Positions 11,351 through 47,100 of a DNA stretch of 64,000 nt are shown here, piece after piece. Under the pieces are notes generated by a model, which did not search any database, was not told the DNA's origin, and worked only from the letters and a program-made list of their open reading frames with translations. The DNA comes from Chromera velia (taxonomy: Eukaryota; Sar; Chromeraceae), in NCBI GenBank assembly GCA_018398765.1, contig JAHBMJ010003309.1:27731-91730 (forward strand), in the 5' to 3' direction. How positions within the stretch are numbered: position 1 is the stretch's first letter; each line of letters starts with the position of its first letter. The translations under genes and the position numbers were made by a program.

Positions 11351-13650
11351 TCAGCTCAATGAAGTTCGGCCTCCCACCGTTGCTGGATCGACATTTGCAA
11401 AGGGATAAACTGGTACGGCGGCCCCCGCAGCGGCAGCAGATGCTGCGGATGATGACGAAGCAGCTGCTGCCCCATCTCCACCTTCCGTTTCCTCTGAGCC
11501 TGTCCCCGTCCCTGTCTCACTGCTTGTTCCACCCCCTGTGCTTGTCCCTGTACCCCCTTCACCCGACGACGATTCCCCAGTGCCCCTCTCTGTCCCTGTC
11601 CCTGTCCCCGTGCTTCCTTCTGCTGTTGATGATCCCCCCCCACTTCCCGTCTCAGTCTCTGCATCTACTGCGATGTCCTCTGAGGATTCTGTGCCTGTGC
11701 CCGTGCTTGTCTCTGAGCTAGATGACGATTCGGATGTCCCCTCGGAGGACGAATCTGTATTGGAATCGGACTCTTCGGATCCTTCAGTGGACGTGTGAGT
11801 GGAATCGGAGCCGCTTCCTTCTGAGCTCGATGCACTGTCCAAGGACAACTCAGTAGAAGAACCGCTGTCCACGGTGTAAGTGCCTGGGACAAGATTGTGC
11901 CCCACACCGGACTCTGTGGGTGGTCCGGTTTCTTCTGTTGGGCCTGCCGCTGCAGCGGCATCTTCCGCAGATTCCTCTCCCCCTTCCTCCGGAGACTCTT
12001 CGTCTGGGTTACCTGCCATGTCCTCTTCACTGCTGTGTGACTCGGTGTCACCGGCGATGGTTGTTGTGGTGGATCCGTCGGACGGGGAGGAGGCCGACCC
12101 TCCTGCTTGACCGGGGGCAAGGGTGCTATTGGTTCCAGTGGAATCGGTTGCATTGGTCAACGTGCTGTTTGAAAGGGTATCGTTCACACTTGATTGACCG
12201 GTACCGTTTGCATCGGCCGAAAGGGCGTCTGAGTCTGTGTCATTCAGCCCTGAGCTCAACTCGTCATCCTCCTCCCTCCCGACTGACGCTCCACTCTCTC
12301 CCCCTGTGACAGAAGAACCATCCAAATCAAAATCTTCCAAACTTTCACTTCCATTCCCTGCAGCAGCAGACGTACCATTCACTCCCTCCGTCAGATCTGT
12401 ACCATTCAGACCAGACACGCTGGAATCGGTACCGTTCAGAGTACCATGGCCTCCTGTGAGGGAAGAAAAGTCCCCGTCGGTGCCATTGACACCCGAAGAC
12501 AGACTGCCTTCACCCGACGCTGTGCCGTTCGTTTGACCGACTGCTGTGCTGTTGTCACTATCACCCACCCCTTCTCCAGATCCATCAGAAGAGGATCCCT
12601 CGGCACTTCCCTCTGTGCCCCCTGACGATCTACCTCCTCCTTCCCCTTCTCCTTCCCCGTTTGACAAATCTCCACTCCCAGCTGCTCCTCCGGAGGAGCC
12701 CTCTCCGTCAGAAGACGAAGAACCTGCTTCTCCCCCCTCACCTCCAGACTCTCCTGAGGATCCACTCTCACCCTCACCTTCCCCTTTCTCCCCTTCTTGC
12801 GCCTCTGTTCCTGTTCCAGCCCCCCCCTCAGGTTCTCCTTTCTTGGCCTCCTCGAGGGCTCCGTGGAGGTCTGACAGCCAATCCTGGTCGCTGCCTTCCT
12901 CAGACAACAACAACCTCTCCTCTTCTGACACAGATTTCGACCCACTCCCAGCCTCATCAGAGGAGGAGGAGGAAGAAGAGGAGGAAGATTCATCTGTCCC
13001 TGTGGAGTCACCAGACGACTCTCCCTCAAATTCCCCACTGCTGCCCTCTCCACTTCCCTCTCCATGTCCAGATCCGCTCTCTGCCCCTGCAGACTCAGCG
13101 GATGACCCTGCAGCTGCATGCGAACCCTCCCCGTGTGCGTGATGGCCTCCCTCTCCAGACCCAGACCCGGAGACGCCACTACCCGACTCTCCGTGAGACG
13201 AACCAGAGTGACTACCGCCACTGCCTGAATGACTGCCGCCCTCTTCTCCGTGAGTGGAATGACCCCCGCTGCCTGCATGGGCCCCTCCCTCCGCACCTCC
13301 TGCGTGTCCTCCAGTGTGGCTTCCTCCCGTGCCCCCATGGTGTCCGGAGGATCCCTCGGAGGACCCTGCGTGCCCCCCTTCCTTTCCTTCCCCGTGGGAA
13401 GAGCCCCCTTCCTCGTGGGAGGAGCCCCCGGAGGCTCCCCCATGGGCACTGTCTCCATGGGGGGAAGAACCGGAGTGAGACGCAGAGTGGGAGTGGGACC
13501 CTTCTGAGCCGGAAGAGTGCGCACCGGTGTGGGTGCCCCCCTCCCCTTCGTGTCCTCCTTCCCCATGGCCCCCGTGGGATCCTGAGGTTCCACTCCCACT
13601 CCCACTTCCTGAGTGGTGCTCCCCTCCTTCGGTATCCAGAGGGGCGGGGT
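11351..13650 (-). other. Ser/Gly/Glu/Thr-rich C-terminal tail (~750 residues)
   Basis: A single uninterrupted low-complexity coding stretch in the last exon. It has SGSGSG and GGSHSG-type runs, His-rich segments (GHHGGTGGSHTGGHAGG), a poly-Ser tract, N-glycosylation sequons (NGT, NDT) in the middle and an acidic Ser/Glu end. It has no hydrophobic anchor and finishes VGGRTSLS. Composition suggests a hydrophilic, glycosylated, gel-forming tail. Confidence 0.7.
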
Positions 13651-16600
13651 TGCCCGCAAACCCGGGGGGGGAATCTTTGAGTTTCCCATGGGATTCTGTC
13701 TCTGTCTCGAGGGGGATTTCGATGGGAGTAACAGCGGGGGCGTTTTCCTTATCGAACTCCTCATTTCCTTGGCAACTCGTCATGAACGCCCCTCCATCCT
13801 GCCTTCCCATATCGACGCCAATCTCCAAATTTTCGAAACGGCAGGGGAATCCACTAGCATAGTTGAAGAGGACTTGCTGCGTTCCGGTCAGACGGGAAGA
13901 AGCGAAGTGAAGGGAAATCGTCAACCCCCCGGAGCCGTAGAGGCCGACAGACCGGTCAGACACCATGAAGTGGTGACCGTTGAACGACACGCCCCCTTCT
14001 CTGCAGACACACACGAAAAAAAATTCAGTCAAAAGCCATGCATAGAGCAGAGTGTGTACATGACTCTTGCCGTCGAGGCGCCAGGACAAAAGAGAGGCAG
14101 CTAGGAATAAAGAGAAGACTGACTGACAGTGAGTATGCAGGCATGTTGGCAGGGAGTGTCTGGGTGAACGCGTCGATGGTGTGCTCTGCGTCCGGGCCTG
14201 TGTGCGTCTTCTGCAGCACCGATTTCCAGTGTGACACTCTGCCTTCAGGAGTGAGCGTCAGGAAACGAGGATGAGGAACGAAGAGACCCAACAGTCTCTT
14301 TCTGAGAGAGACAGGGACAGAACTCAGGTCTTCAAACGCTTGAGGATCTCCCTTATGAAGGAGGACAGTGGCTGATCTGAAAAAGTCAGCAACCTTCTCC
14401 AGTTCTCCTGCCTCAATGGAGATCTCACGCCTCCATATGGCCATGCCGTGAATGCTTCCTGCAAGAGGTGGAAAACATGAAAGTTGTGTTTCGTCAGCGA
14501 ATGCTCTCAAAACGCTTTTTGGCCAGCTTCAGCGCTTTTCCCGTCAGATGCAAGAAGACAGAAGCAAACCATCGTTTTTGTGTGAAGCACTATGAAGCCG
14601 GGAAAAAGAGTCGATTGATGCTGAGACTTACTTTCACCTAGACTGACCGAAAAAGCAGTTATCTGCAAGAGAGCGGTTGCTGAGATGGTCTCCTGGAAGG
14701 TTGTCTATTTCCCCTGGGTGAAGCGAGCTGAGCTCTTCCACCGACACCCGACAGCCCAGATCCACCGGGGCCGCCCGTCCAAGGAGCATACCGCGGGCCC
14801 ACGCAGGTCCCGGAAAGCCGTGACCTGTGCGGACCAACTCGCCTCCAGACAGGAGATGCCCACTCTCAGCGGCATGTGAGGACAAACCAGGCACATCCTC
14901 ATCTGAGGTGGGCAGTCTGAAGGCGAAGGCGGCAGGGTCCTCGGGAAGGGGTTTCTGCTTCTCTCCTGAGAACATTCGGAGAAGACTTTTGCCGAGCGGC
15001 TGGGGATATGGAAGGATCTCGACTGTGAATATCTCCGGCCCTGTTCCGATCGGGGTCTTTTTCTCCCCTGCTGATCCTGTCTCCCCCTCTTTCTCTTCCT
15101 CCACCTCCTCTCCTTCTGCCTCTTTGACAACTTGTTCCTTCGAGACGGTGGCGTGCTTGGGGCCTGCAGAGACTCCAAATCTTCCGATGCCTGCACGCAT
15201 CCATTCACTCATTCGACCGATGATTGGGGGGATGATTCATGCGTTAGGTAGTCAGAAGGAGGATCGGACACTCACACACACAAACACACGCACACACACA
15301 CGCACACACACACACACATACACACACACACACATACACACACACACACACACACACAGACAGACAGACAGACATAGAGGCATAGAGACATAGAGACAGA
15401 AAGACAGAGGGACAGACAGACAGACAGAGAGACAGATGAATAAGTAGGTGGACAGGCAAATGGATAAGCATAACGCATACATACATGTAAACATGCATGC
15501 GTGCACACATGCAGACACAGTAGGTGTTGAGACGAAGTTTCTTCTTCTCAGTTTCTTCTCATTCAAAGAAAGGGAATGGGACCGCAACGCAGGTAACGAC
15601 AGAAACTTCTTCCTTGTCCTCTTGATGTCTCCCTGCTGTCACTCACGTACCTCCGCAGTTGACAGAGGTCACCCACTCCCCGTCCTCGCAGACGGCCTCC
15701 CCCTCGAGAGGGATCGAGTGGCCCTCGTGGTCTTTGAACACATCCAGAGGCCGTGCACACCGGACAGAGATTCTAGTGCCAGGCCGAGGCACCAGAGGGG
15801 AAGACGAGGGCACGAAGTCTTCCCTGTCCTCCCATTGACCGCAGGGTCTCTCACACCTGAGATTGACCTCCGACCATTTCACTGTCTGGCTGTTCCTGTC
15901 AAAGGAGGCAAAGAGGGCCTCGACTGATGCCCCCCCCTGTGCCACGAACTTGGACTCATGGCCCGCGAGACTTCCAATCAGAGTTTCCTCTTCTTCATCT
16001 CCCGCGATCTGTTTCTCCATCCATTCCTGGTCTCTGCAGGAAATCTGAACGACCGCCACTGCCTCGACAGACGGCAGGTCTGCTCCGTCGAGAGAGTCCC
16101 CCTCAGGAGGGGGGAGTTTCTTCACAGGCCCCCTCTTGTAACGCTCAGTCAACACAGGGACACCGCAAACCTCCGGAGATGGACGGCCGCCCGGAGGCAC
16201 GTGCACCTTTTTTGGGTCTGCCTGGACTGGGGGTTTCCACGCGTCTTTGTCTCCCTTGTCGGGATGTCGGAACACCCGTTTGGTGTCCTCCCAGTCCCTT
16301 TCGATCTTGAACGACACAGCGTAGCGCTGCTTTGGCTCGACTCTCGAATCCGAAATCAGGAGGGCCCGAATGATGGGGTCGAAATGCGACTGCAGTCATT
16401 TAATTGAGCGTTCATGGGAGCAGGCAGACAGACATGCAGCCAGGCAGGGGAGCAGCAATCGACAGGTGTAAAAAGAGAAAAAGAAAGTCGGGAGGAAGGG
16501 ACGAGGTGAAAAAAACAGCGGCGATCAACAAAGAGAAGAAGATGACGAAGAAGAAGAGAGTGCGGATTGGTGCTTTGGGGAATTCAGGGCTTAGCTCTCA

Positions 16601-40445: not shown

Positions 40446-40767
40446 NNNNNNNNNNNNNNNNNNNNNNNNNNNNNNNNNNNNNNNNNNNNNNNNNNNNNNN
40501 NNNNNNNNNNNNNNNNNNNNNNNNNNNNNNNNNNNNNNNNNNNNNNNNNNNNNNNNNNNNNNNNNNNNNNNNNNNNNNNNNNNNNNNNNNNNNNNNNNNN
40601 NNNNNNNNNNNNNNNNNNNNNNNNNNNNNNNNNNNNNNNNNNNNNNNNNNNNNNNNNNNNNNNNNNNNNNNNNNNNNNNNNNNNNNNNNNNNNNNNNNNN
40701 NNNNNNNNNNNNNNNNNNNNNNNNNNNNNNNNNNNNNNNNNNNNNNNNNNNNNNNNNNNNNNNNNNN
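40446..40767. other. Assembly gap (322 N)
   Basis: A run of N flanked on the left by C12 A11 GAAG and on the right by A10 GAAG G11. The similar flanks suggest the gap sits in a homopolymer-rich repeat. Confidence 0.95.
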
Positions 40768-41486
40768 AAAAAAAAAAGAAGGGGGGGGGGGCGTATGTTA
40801 AGACTTGTACTCCATAATTTACAAAGGAGGGCATGGAGGAAAATTATCATCCGAAAATGAGGAGAAAATAATAGAGATCAACAATGCTGACCCTCGACAG
40901 AACAGGTGAAAACAGAATGATATCCTTTTTGTCACACCTCCACAGAAAACTTAAGCCATGAACTGCTGCCTTGACTGATTTCCTGGGGCGATGCTTTCCC
41001 TGATTGTGGAGGTAATTGCGGGGGGAAAGCAACGATCTAATTGTCATTTTGAATCCATCAACTTGCGAGGTTTTCATGGAAGAGGGCAGAAAGGGGATTG
41101 TCGACGATCGGGTCCCTTGCCCTGGCCGCTGCCTGCCTCTCTTTTGAAGAGAACTCTGAGAGAGAGAGAGAATCTGGATGAGCTGCTCGACACGGGAGGT
41201 AAACATTTGGACGGGCCTGGAGGGTGCCTTCCGAGGGGGACATTGAAAGTCTGTTTGACGCCTAGCTGAGGATCGGACTCTGATATGATCGTTGGCGGAA
41301 CTCACCTTGAAGTTGCAGCTGCATGCTGCGGACCCGATCACCGCACGATGACACATGCAGATCTCGACCGATCGAGTGAAAGAATCGTGAAGAGAAAATC
41401 TATCTTTCCCGGCCCCCTGTTTCAAGACTCTCTGACTGCATGTGAGGTGTACAGCGGGTCTCTTCACCTTAGTCCCACTACACTAC
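40768..41486. other. Spacer between the gap and the histone-doublet gene
   Basis: No convincing independent gene. On the minus strand there are a strong donor-like CAAG|GTGAGT at about 41305 and a CATGCAG acceptor before it. Further small exons of the histone-doublet gene could therefore lie here if the GTGAGT at its 3' end is used. Confidence 0.35.
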
Positions 41487-42101
41487 TCACGCGGACAAGG
41501 GAGGCCACTTTCCCTGAAAGAATTCTTCAAGTAAAGGATCGGAGCGTATCCCTCTCTTGATGTGGTCTTCTGTCAGATTCTCCCTCGCCTCAGCTGCCTT
41601 CTCTGGATCTGGATCTTTAGCAGACACAATCTGCTTTCTCTGGTTGTTCGACAGCTCCACAACCTCTGCCATCATGTACTGGCACAAAGCCGCCATGCCC
41701 ATCGCCACCTTTGGGGGAACTGGGCTGTTCAGAGACTCATCCAGTAGTTTGGAAACAGCAGGTATGGAAATATGAACATCAGAGGCTGTTTGCATCTCCT
41801 CTGTGGTCACGGATGCTCCGGACCCCCCGTCTCCTCCAGTCTCCTTCTTTTCTTCTATATCATTCACCTTACAGCACGCCTTGAGAAACTCCCCCTTGGC
41901 GTAGCTCTTCAATTCTCCTGGGATGATATCTTCAATCGTCTTCTGTATTGCCTCCAGTGTAAATTCCTCCTTCCCCTTGACAAACGCTTTAACAATGGCC
42001 TGGACGAGAGCAACAAGGGCCTCTTTTCCTGATTCTGATGCCGTCACTTCACCGCAGAAATCCGAAACCACCTTGTGGATACCAGAAGATTCCCAATCCA
42101 T
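41487..42101 (-). CDS. Divergent H2B-H2A histone-fold doublet
   Basis: A single open exon, 204 aa from ATG at 42101 to TGA at 41487. Residues about 7-80 match the end of H2B: a helix-rich stretch, then FTLEAIQKTIEDIIPGELKS and YAKGEFLKACCKV. These parallel the H2B alpha-3 and the PGEL-initiated alpha-C helix. A Gly/Glu linker (81-108) follows. Residues about 109-197 match H2A: ISIPAVSKLLDE, MAALCQYMMAEVVELSNNQ, then after an 18-residue insertion LTEDHIKRGIRSDPLLEEFF, the counterpart of the H2A RHLQLAIRNDEELNKLL segment. The H2B alpha-2 looks about eight residues short, and basic tails are missing, so it may not be a core nucleosomal histone. A perfect GTGAGT overlaps the stop, so a spliced C-terminal extension is possible. 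It is divergent to PIG-W. An NF-Y/Dr1-type factor is the alternative, but PGEL favours H2B. Confidence 0.7.
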   Translation of the reverse strand: MDWESSGIHKVVSDFCGEVTASESGKEALVALVQAIVKAFVKGKEEFTLEAIQKTIEDIIPGELKSYAKGEFLKACCKVNDIEEKKETGGDGGSGASVTTEEMQTASDVHISIPAVSKLLDESLNSPVPPKVAMGMAALCQYMMAEVVELSNNQRKQIVSAKDPDPEKAAEARENLTEDHIKRGIRSDPLLEEFFQGKWPPLSA

Positions 42102-42691
42102 TTCAAAAGAGACAGATGCAAAACACACATGCAAATCCGGAACTGTCCTGCACGGCTTGGGTCTGGAGTTACGACAGCAATCAGTTTTCTGAGTACAGTT
42201 TGCTTTCTGCGCTGCTGGAACACATGTTGGTGCTTAATTCTATGTATGTATATATTAATATTAATACATGTGACATACAGAAAGAGGACGCACCCATTCG
42301 GATCCAACAACACCGTTGACTAATTTGCCTGACCTTCACGCATGCAGCATGCATGCAGGTCGAAGGCATGCATGGCTCGGAATGGCTCGCGGAGGCTGCG
42401 CGGGCTCTGCAACTGTCACTGAGTTGGGCGTCTCCTTAAATTGGACCTTAATATTGCCAAATCACGCACGCAATCGCACGCATCTCCTATCATCTCCTCT
42501 ATCAGATGTTCGATCAATCTCATCGTGCAGGAAGTCTGCCTTGGCGTCTGATACCTTGTATTTATAGTGGACAACACAGGAGTAGAGAGCACTTGTCCGG
42601 ACTGGCGATGAGGTTGCGCTTTTGAGGTAGAAACTCTTTTGTGAAACAGCAGAGCGACTTTGGGTCCCCCGCTTCCCGTAGCTGTAGCACA
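42102..42691. promoter_or_regulatory. Divergent promoter region between the histone doublet and PIG-W, with two TGCATGC-type sites
   Basis: Only 590 bp separate the two start codons. TGCATGCA is at 42350-42357 and GCATGCATG at 42366-42374, near the centre. An AT-rich patch (42235-42270) precedes them. A shared promoter is inferred. Confidence 0.45.
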
Positions 42692-44066
42692 ATGGGGACG
42701 GAGGGCAAGAAGAGCCTAGGATTTCTGGACAAGTGGTGGTGGTATGGATGCCCTGAGGGCTTGGACCACAGCTTTTGTTCATCCGACTTGGGCGAAGAAA
42801 AATACAAAGAACTTCAAACCGTTGCTTATGATAACCCTCACGGATTTTCCTGGGTTTTGCTGTTCGAGATTTACGCTTTCGTGTTTCTGATGCCTGTATT
42901 GCTAATAGTGGGCCAAAAGGTCAAGGAGAATACAGGGTGTACAAATGCTCGGGTGTTTGGTATCGGAAGTTTCTTCTGGGATTTTTTATTTGTTTTTGGT
43001 CCCCCCACGTTGTTAATGCTCGCTCCTCCCTTCCTCTTTCTCCTGGTTGGATACATGGGCGCCTTCTTCTTGGCCCTGTGCATCACTTTGTGGCAGCAAG
43101 GGTCAAGTGGGAAGATTGATGGGATCCCCGTGCGGGTTGACGAGAGAAGCAGACCCCTCTTTCTGTCGACCTACAGGGCCGTGATGATGGTGTCGACATG
43201 TGTCGCCATCCTGGCCGTGGACTTCCTCGCGTTTCCGCGCAGATTTGCCAAGAGCCTTCGTCTTGGTTTTTCCTTGATGGATGCCGGAGTGGGAGGGGTG
43301 TTGTTTGCAGGAGGTGCGGTCTCGCGGTGGGCGAGGGGTGACAAGAATAGTTCCCCTCTGTTGAACAGTCTTGCGCGGCTGTGGCCGTTGCTGGTGATGG
43401 GCACGGCGCGATTTGTCATCATTTGGGTTGCAGACAAACACGTGCCTGCAACAGAGTACGGTGTACATTGGAATTTTTTCTTCACTCTCGGTGTGGTGGC
43501 AGTGGGTGCAGTGGTGGCAGAGAAATTGGTGTCTCCTGAGCATGCTTGGGTCCTCGCTGCGTTGATCTCTGGGATTTATGAGTGCTTTCTCTGTCTGGGG
43601 GGTGGAGAGGAGTTCATCCTCGATAGCTCTCGAACGAATTTCTTTTCTTCCAATCGTGAGGGCATTCTTGGGTGTTTAGGCTTTCTGTCCGTGCATCTCT
43701 GCGGAGTCTCAGTGGGAAGGGGGGTCTTCATTTCGTTTGTTGAGGGAGAGGAGTTGACGGCAGAAGAGCTGAACAATCAGACCTCATCCGGTGTGGAACT
43801 TGAGGGTGAGAAGGAGAAGGAGAAGGAGAAAGAAGGGAATGCAGAAGAGAAAGAGAAGAAAAAGGGGGCAAGTGCAGAGAAAGGAGAGTTGGCACGGAGC
43901 GCGGACAAAGGAGCGAGACAGCGGAAGGGAAAAGGGAAGGGAGGCGCTGATGGCAGCCCCACAAAGCAGGAGAAGGTAAGAGCAGTCTGTGGATTCAGAT
44001 GTATTGGTATGGGAATGGCAAATGCAAACCCCCACTTCGCACTAAAAATGAAGAGAAGGGTTCTTC

Positions 44067-44097
<31 letters not shown>

Positions 44098-44120
44098 TTT
44101 TTCTTTCTGTCTTTCTTTCT

Positions 44121-44159
<39 letters not shown>

Positions 44160-47100
44160 TTTGTTATCTGTTCTCTGTGTGTATCGCCTCGACTTGCTCC
44201 TCCCAGGCTCGCTGGAATCTGGGACTACTTTGTCGTATGCTCTCAGCAACAATGGAGCGAGGAAGAGGGAGAACAGACGTTTCTTCGTTTGCTCCTTGGT
44301 ATTCTTGGTGTCATTGCTCTGCTTTTCGTTTTCCCCCTTGAGGTGGGGGGCGATGAGTGCAGATAGCGGCAGTGCCAGGCACTGCTTCTCTTCTCGATAT
44401 TTTTGAAAAAAAAAGATTCATGTGCCTGCTGTGCGACCTGCTCATGCGTGCAGGAGAAGGGTAAAGGAAAATCGTCCGAAGGGGAGGAAGGGAAGAAGAG
44501 CGAAACCAAATTCCCCAACGAGACGAAAGTGGCGGAAGGGAAATTTCGCATTGCGAAGGGATTGCACACATATTTGTTCAAGTAAGCTAGTGAGAAGAAT
44601 TGAAATACTCCGAAAAGTATGCATTCGGTGAATCCCTTCTCCTTTCACTTCATTTAGCACTCGGCGTCTTGTATTATCTTATGCATCTGTCTTCTTTCTC
44701 CATGAGCGATCTGTGGACCCGTGTGAAAGTCAACACCTTCTGTTATCTTGCTTGGTCCTTTCTGTCCTTCTGCCTGTCCTCCTTCCTCTCTATCTGATTC
44801 CGTCGTTCTCTGATAATGAGCGCGATCTGATGCCCGCCTGTTTCCCTGACCCCTTCTCCCCGCCTCCTGCGCCTTTCTGACCAAAGCCCTCACCTCACCG
44901 GACCTGCTTCGTGTCGGTCGCTGCCTCTATCTGCAGAGTCCTGGTGCTCTCTCTGTCAGTGGCTGCGGGTCTTTCTGAATCTTTCGGGGCCGTGCCTTCG
45001 CGCAGAATGGTCAGTCAGTCTCTGTGGATTCATTCCGTTCGGCAGTGGCGGACAGACTTCGCTGGTTTCCATTCCGACCAGACAGACGGTCAAACAATTG
45101 TCTGTTCAATTGCTCTATCCGTGTGCATTTGTCGTTTGACGGACATCGCTTCAAATTGGTTCCGTGGGCTCAGCAGAGAGAGAAAAAAGGGGAAAGCCAG
45201 TAGAGTCTTCAGTCACTTCGGGGAGGGCTCCTAATGCATTTTGAGTCTCTTTTCTGTGGAATAGAGGCCAAAAAAGGCTGTCGACTGCGTTTTTCATGTA
45301 GAGATGCCTTTCCCGATTTGTCAATGGGCGGTCATTTGCAGGCGAATGCGGGGTATGTGCTTCACACAGTCGCTTTGAACGTGTTCGCCATGCAACTTTT
45401 CTTCCTTGGCAGCCGCATTGTCGAACAAGGAGGTCGGTGCTTGCAGGAAGAGGGGCAAGAAAGGGAAGGAAAGGGATGCATTCAGAACGAACGCACAGAT
45501 ATGAAAAGGGCGAATATTGAGGGTAGACAGGTGCGGTCTAGAAGGGCAGAATGAGGATCCATCGTTGCACGAAAGAGAGCTTGGCTGACGTTCTTTCCTC
45601 CATACCTTCTGAAGTCTGCTCTCCCCCACTTCCTCTTCTCTTATCTTTTCTATGAATCATCGGTCCAGCTAGCACTCTGTGATTCTTTGCGCATTCTTCT
45701 TCTTCTTATGAGACGCTGATCTTTAGGGTCTGCTCTGTCAGCTCTTTTTCTTTCTGTCCCTCTCCGGTCGGGTCAATGGGTGGAGGGATGGAGCGCTTGT
45801 GTCAATCGGGTCGGATGACCGATAGAGCGTCTTCTGTTCCACAGGCAGAGAGGCAATTTTTCTTTTTTTCTCGGATCATTTCTTCGACAGCGAACCTGTC
45901 TTCCTGGCCTTCTTCTCCCGTGTGTTTGTGCGTTGTAGTGCTTGTTCATCTCTCTTCTCTCATCAAGTGTGTGCGTGTGCAATCGGGAGAGGGCTGCAGG
46001 GGGTCCGACAATTCCTGTGTGGAGGAATCTGCTTGTAGAGGCGATCCACGAAAACCAACTCACAGTCTTCCTGGTAGTCAGTCCGACAGGCAGGCAGTCA
46101 GGCACGGCGTTGAGCACATTTAGAGACTGAGTTCATCCACTCTCTCATGAAATCTCCAGCAGTCCTGCAAAGGTTTCAAGTCGGTCCAACTCTGCAATTG
46201 GGAGGCATCTGCGCCCCTCCACTCTTCTTCAGCCTTTGCCTGCAGACTGCGACGAGCGGCTTTCATGCCCAGTATGTACGATTTCTTTCTGTCTTCATTG
46301 GCTCAGATGTCGTTCATCTTCACATTCATGCCCTTTCTCCCCTTCTGTTTACTTCCGAGTCTCCTTCGGCCTCTCCACTATGTATCCTTTCTCGTCCTCC
46401 CCCTCCTGCTCTTCTGCCCGTTTTGTTGCCTTCCCGTAGGCCCGAATGCGATGCAGTAGGTGTTCATGGGTTCGAAGGCGACAGAGAAGTGCATGCAGGT
46501 TTTCTTAGGTCTGAAGGTTGGCATCCTCGCTCAGTTTCCGTCTCTCCTTCATTCATCCTTTCATTTAGTGTCATGTCCTCCCTCCCTATCCCTTCTGCCA
46601 CACTTCAAATGAACAGGCCAACATCCTGACTGGTACTGTCGGAAAGGCAACACGGACGCTCGTGCAACCTCGTGCTACCGCCTTCAAAATCCTCGGCCTG
46701 TCAGTTCATATGAATAGACACATATTCTCAGATGCGCTTCGTGGCTGAATGAGCGAGGGCGGTACCGAGTGGGTCTCGCGCTGTTGCGTTCATCATCAAA
46801 TCACGCTCCAGATCTCGCATTCGACTGCACGTTCTCGGTCTCTTTCTCTGCCCCTTCTCTCTTCACCTTCTGACGTCCTGTCATTTATTTTCGCCTGTTC
46901 CTTTTTTTCGCATTTATTGCGCGTGCGCGTGTCTGTTCTCACCCTGTCTCGAAGTCCAAAATGGCTGTTTCTGCCTCAGAAGAAGGAAGGGTGGCGGAAA
47001 CCACCGGTTGAAAAGAAAGAGTCTGAGAGTGTGTGGTTGTTCCCTCTCCGTCGGAATTACGCTGCCTCTGTGCTGCTGCTCTGAACTTGTGGTCTGATGC

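Follow-up and report, generated by a model that had tools for sequence, protein, structure and literature searches.

The 64,000-nucleotide stretch of Chromera velia DNA analysed here (the window) carries on its minus strand a gene for a fused H2B–H2A protein. As judged from its sequence, the protein belongs to a structural class already known; the lineage in which it occurs is unexpected, and its surface is unusual. Aligned with two further doublets from the same genome, it retains as the best-kept residue set the acidic patch of the nucleosome. The protein may be a single-chain H2A–H2B mimic acting as an acidic-patch docking module outside the nucleosome, a reading from sequence and modelling to which we give a little less than an even chance.

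The open reading frame and its genomic setting

The doublet frame occupies 41487..42101 of the minus strand and comprises 204 residues and a stop, with the ATG at 42101-42099, the TGA at 41489-41487 and the residues encoded by 42101-41490. The original prediction had placed an uninterrupted 204-codon frame at these coordinates correctly, leaving its strand unstated, and the peptides that it quoted are present. Since 42 stop-to-stop frames of at least 200 codons occur in the window, the length of the frame has no significance by itself and the case depends on homology. A codon score, for which nine host frames including the paralogue on contig C2190 served as training set, was above zero in the doublet frame alone of the six. 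A chance frame was ruled out by this score, the paralogue and the profile matches, and the doublet frame is, as far as sequence can tell, a real gene.

Further 3′ on the same strand, no 60-codon stop-free window as far as 38200 scored above zero (best −0.028); the scan leaves shorter exons and an assembly gap unjudged. This gap of Ns, at 40446-40767, lies 3′ of the gene and has homopolymer runs on both flanks. Read directly from the sequence, the doublet stop overlaps GTGAGT (41485..41490, minus strand), a possible 5′ splice site matching the consensus, which leaves room for another short exon. The divergent neighbour is a plus-strand frame at 42641..44341 with a GWT1 domain (Pfam PF06423, E 6.4e-69), which we take to be the eukaryotic GPI inositol acyltransferase. 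This host gene supports the nuclear eukaryotic setting proposed at the outset. Elsewhere in the window, a low-complexity, Ser/Gly/Glu-rich frame of 968 codons was seen at 11351-14257 on the minus strand, and an Rfam search of the window returned nothing at gathering score.

Histone identity of the two halves

A phmmer search of the PDB with the window protein gave engineered H2B–H2A chimeras as top matches (E 9.8e-7). A profile of the three doublets (the window protein and those on C2190 and C608) reached 3.6e-15, a score raised by C608 as its most histone-like row. The halves were also searched separately, again with three-doublet profiles that include C608. Residues 1-88 (41838..42101, minus strand) form an H2B-like fold with alpha-C, as indicated by the first-half profile and the structure model; the best match was 1.8e-12, and the best 60 of 183 rows were all H2B or H2B-containing fusions. 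With the second-half profile, residues 113-195 (41517..41765, minus strand) were assigned to an H2A-like fold with alpha-C. Here the best 60 of 217 rows were H2A, Marseillevirus doublets and Sos, together with evident chance matches to two designed dTor proteins, one of them near the top (1.4e-5).

The two successive histone-fold halves in H2B–H2A order, as first proposed, are thus recovered by separate profiles. It had been considered that NF-YB/NF-YC or other histone-fold factors might match better than H2B and H2A; neither NF-Y nor TAF rows appeared among the best 60 of 183 or the best 60 of 217, and with TAFII28 below the cut-off as well, an NF-Y or TAF-like factor looks less likely as far as these best rows go. 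With two histone folds in one polypeptide, the protein is a double histone fold (DHF). It is also divergent: it shares 25, 22 and 12% identity with three native H2B sequences and 27% with one piece of native H2A. Pfam Histone (PF00125) gave no match over the cut-off for the window protein, which was likewise not among the 17 matches of a genome-wide PF00125 search, and NCBIfam returned sub-threshold matches alone.

Modelled structure

DSSP on the structure model placed the helices of the H2B-like half at residues 8-16, 23-41, 49-59 and 62-88. Canonical H2B alpha-2 has about 28 residues and the modelled helix 19 (residues 23-41; 41979..42035, minus strand), in line with the short alpha-2 of the original prediction; native H2B alignments also show the shortening and disagree on where the gap falls. 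The PGEL motif and H2B alpha-C follow at residues 61-88 (41838..41921, minus strand), where E63 and E71 stand at the two H2B acidic-patch positions. A Gly-containing linker, residues 89-112 (41766..41837, minus strand), includes a short modelled helix at 100-107. In the H2A-like half, the model and alignment indicate a lengthened L2 loop, residues 160-177 (41571..41624, minus strand), with an extra modelled helix at 166-174 and the native KKTR lost. Basic tails are absent, as had been noted.

The two folds are predicted to pair inside one chain as an intramolecular pseudodimer, the arrangement expected of DHF proteins. Native H2B and H2A sequences were included in the alignment behind the confident model, and of the five models in that run two fell below pLDDT 50. 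Modelling from two doublets alone left the helices nearly unchanged at a best pLDDT of 44.6, a quality too low for use.

Further doublets in the genome

The genome searched amounts to 177.8 Mb in 4040 contigs. C2190 carries a 330-aa frame that matches both halves of the window protein (residues 22-170; E 6.8e-12, 33% identity) and is, by sequence, a clear paralogue with the same architecture. Its doublet frame runs to CCG/GTAAGG; a pyrimidine tract and AG occur 601 bases on, and the ankyrin frame that follows them is in phase and lies on that strand too (Ank_2, E 1.7e-32). The doublet is probably joined to the ankyrin repeats by splicing, in which case the KRKR ending the 330-aa frame would be intron. 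Ankyrin repeats are very numerous in this genome (2095 first-look candidates, of which 150 were scored, with 213 matches), so the adjacency can be chance.

The ankyrin frame bears on a different reading, in which the doublets would be an alveolate DHF branch of ABTB2/Cca3-like adaptors, paired with ankyrin repeats for general complex assembly, and the acidic patch would have no particular function. ABTB2 combines a DHF with ankyrin repeats and BTB, and Cca3S is a free-standing DHF; in the review's listing, as extracted, both types are confined to animals (PMC13088155). Compared by description, ABTB2/Cca3-type proteins and Cca3S have a divergent H2B-/H2A-like pair as the doublets do, and C2190 likely has the ankyrin partner. 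However, no stop-free 60-codon window 3′ of the window gene scores as coding as far as 38200, the ankyrin frame beside the C2190 doublet comes without a BTB match and may be fortuitous, and the 24 listed BTB matches all fall outside the doublet contigs (C3207, C2190 and C608). We consider such an adaptor somewhat unlikely.

The third doublet, on C608, is part of a 415-aa frame (positions 4257-5501 of L032, minus strand) in which a C-terminal region of 213 residues follows the doublet. Searched to E 1 in Pfam and, by sequence, to E 10 in the PDB, this region matched nothing. C608 was located via human H2A, and its doublet part matches engineered H2B–H2A.V (1.8e-9) and the Melbournevirus doublet (4.3e-8). 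It was grouped with the others on architecture and alignment, with 25% identity to the window protein. Neither the window protein nor C2190 retrieved C608 from the genome, and C608 retrieved neither of them; it may therefore be a separate fusion.

Two weaker candidates were found. On C3452, a possible tandem (positions 4944-5723 of L034, minus strand) has an H2A-like second half (4.9e-5) and a first half that is weakly H2B-like by eye. An H2A-like exon on C24 (positions 4309-4611 of L039, plus strand) shows 37% identity to human H2A in a match that crosses two TGA codons; judged by sequence, it may be a variant, a pseudogene or a piece of another doublet. A separate collection of genome contigs was scanned with the doublet pair, and no relative was confirmed in it.

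Charge and acidic-patch residues

All three doublets are acidic. Lysine plus arginine against aspartate plus glutamate number 23 versus 35 in the window protein, 23 versus 47 in C2190 (316 aa) and 17 versus 29 in C608 (179 aa). Residue retention was counted across these three, excluding the candidates on C3452 and C24. At 19 basic positions common to human and native histones, basic residues are kept in 18 of 57 cells; the basic tails and DNA-contacting basic fold residues of a core histone are thus largely lost. The acidic patch of a core histone is kept, with 20 of 24 cells acidic at its eight positions. At five other acidic positions only 2/15 cells are acidic and 5/15 are gaps. The patch was defined from an extract of PMC10606924, where the H2B residues are E102 and E110 in Xenopus numbering.

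Fourteen positions are identical in all three doublets, among them H2B E105 and E113 and H2A E61, E64 and D90; the last three correspond to E146, E149 and D188 of the window protein. In this member, five of the eight patch positions are acidic, E56 being replaced by Q, E91 by P and E92 by L. H2A E92 forms part of the arginine-anchor pocket. The probability calculated for the patch retention, P 3.9e-4, is a guide only and optimistic, since the doublets are probably related rather than independent and the patch residues sit in the best-aligned helices.

These counts weigh on two other explanations. In one, the fused protein would replace the H2A–H2B dimer at special loci and give less stable nucleosomes, like the short Melbournevirus variant doublet. 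Trimmed Melbournevirus doublets do still form particles, according to an extract of PMC12297534. Nevertheless, the basic fold residues are mostly gone, the pI is 4.6-4.9 and tails are absent; together with the short H2B alpha-2 and the changed L2 loop, this acidity argues against a nucleosomal role, which we regard as improbable. In the other, the gene would be a dead histone fusion in free drift. Its divergence is high, as decay would predict, but 204 codons remain open with a host-like codon score, the paralogue has the same architecture and residues are invariant across the three doublets, which makes decay very improbable.

Proposed role

As a single-chain mimic of the H2A–H2B dimer, the gene product would neither wrap DNA nor enter octamers; we infer this from the shortening of H2B alpha-2, which forms part of the contact with H4. 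The conserved surface suggests that it would present the acidic patch without DNA and so be bound by arginine-anchor proteins, such as chromatin readers, remodellers or histone chaperones. As a docking module it might either compete with nucleosomes for these binders or tether them to further domains. In C608 the doublet carries an unmatched C-terminal region, and in C2190 it is probably followed by ankyrin repeats. A more specific version, which strikes us as unlikely, makes the doublets free-standing acidic-patch decoys that form an alveolate family: having given up DNA binding, these single-chain mimics would rival nucleosomes for arginine-anchor proteins of chromatin and so titrate chromatin readers. 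With the docking surface kept and the DNA-contacting basic residues lost, the protein offers a clear and cheap way to test whether the acidic patch can act outside the nucleosome.

Comparison with known double histone folds

Marseilleviridae H2B–H2A doublets (7n8n_B, 7lv8, 9cvt) form nucleosome-like particles on DNA. The window doublet differs from them in being acidic, in having lost most basic fold residues and in lying at a host locus. Derivation from a giant-virus doublet, one of two origins first suggested, would account for the shared domain order. The second-half profile places the Marseillevirus alpha chain (1.2e-5) slightly above the best H2A (4.8e-5), the Melbournevirus doublet is the second-best match of C608 (4.3e-8), and in a viral structure library a protein of Pithovirus LCPAC304 tied with the Marseillevirus fusion for best match (E 1.1e-6 each). 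Against this, the window protein matches eukaryote-derived fusions best (9.8e-7) and the Melbournevirus doublet poorly (0.3), its neighbour is a host gene, and Sos has the same domain order. A scan of viral contigs with the doublet pair found no relative; scanning the same contigs with native H2A or H2B, or with an alignment of H2A, also gave nothing, so that the positive control failed and the negative is uninformative. These hints of viral capture are weak and we doubt it strongly; a host fusion with a non-nucleosomal role is the better of the two suggestions.

Sos is built of its fold followed by exchange-factor domains. The window gene is by comparison a free-standing 204-aa frame, with no stop-free 60-codon window scoring as coding 3′ to 38200, and membership of the Sos type was rejected on this basis. 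Over a structural alignment, the Sos H domain (1q9c, 3ksy) is 14% identical to the window protein. In an extract of PMC13088155, this domain has the H2B-like fold before the H2A-like one, and Sos is a cytosolic protein. SPT3 resembles the window doublet in having two histone folds in one chain. The HSIH-DHF proteins of animals are likewise free-standing H2B–H2A fusions, in one of the two orders described. Their identity with core histones is at least 60% (PMC13088155, in part), whereas the window doublet has 12-25% with native H2B and 27% with the native H2A piece; HSIH membership was ruled out by these low values.

The claim that no eukaryotic nuclear example had been described is not supported in that form: an extract of PMC13088155 lists Sos H domains, ABTB2-type proteins, SPT3 and HSIH-DHF among eukaryotes. 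That extract does not mention algae, alveolates or the acidic patch. A dinoflagellate histone survey using a Chromera transcriptome mentions no doublet or fusion (PMC4751559), and the word "histone" is absent from the main text of the chromerid genome paper as extracted (PMC4501334). Among the open-licence papers listed by literature searches, neither titles nor abstract openings mention an alveolate histone doublet. Finding more than one such gene in what is probably the nuclear genome of an alveolate widens the range of H2B–H2A fusions and bears on the argument that eukaryotes lack histone fusions.

Other histone-like genes

The genome also holds separate native histones, with H2B at four loci, H2A on C239 and C3925, and H3. 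One search match, L036, is a native H2A exon. Eleven weak genome matches (L003, L004, L005, L025, L026, L037, L038, L044, L019, L020 and L022; E 0.2 to 10) were judged to be chance, with the translations of L003, L019, L020, L022, L025 and L026 inspected. The chlorophyll a/b-binding family has 58 matches in the same genome. Divergent H3-like pieces on C1557 (L009), C1899 (L010), C821 (L016) and C222 (L021) occur alongside three normal H3 genes (L006-L008); those on C1899 and C821 carry in-frame stops and that on C222 is weak (E 1.7). A divergent H4-like gene, L018, was located at G000:C3012:56684-56893 on the plus strand (PDB H4 match 7e-8; Pfam Histone 0.039). Its tail and start (GGAKRHRKVLRDNIEGI) are retained and its fold has diverged strongly.
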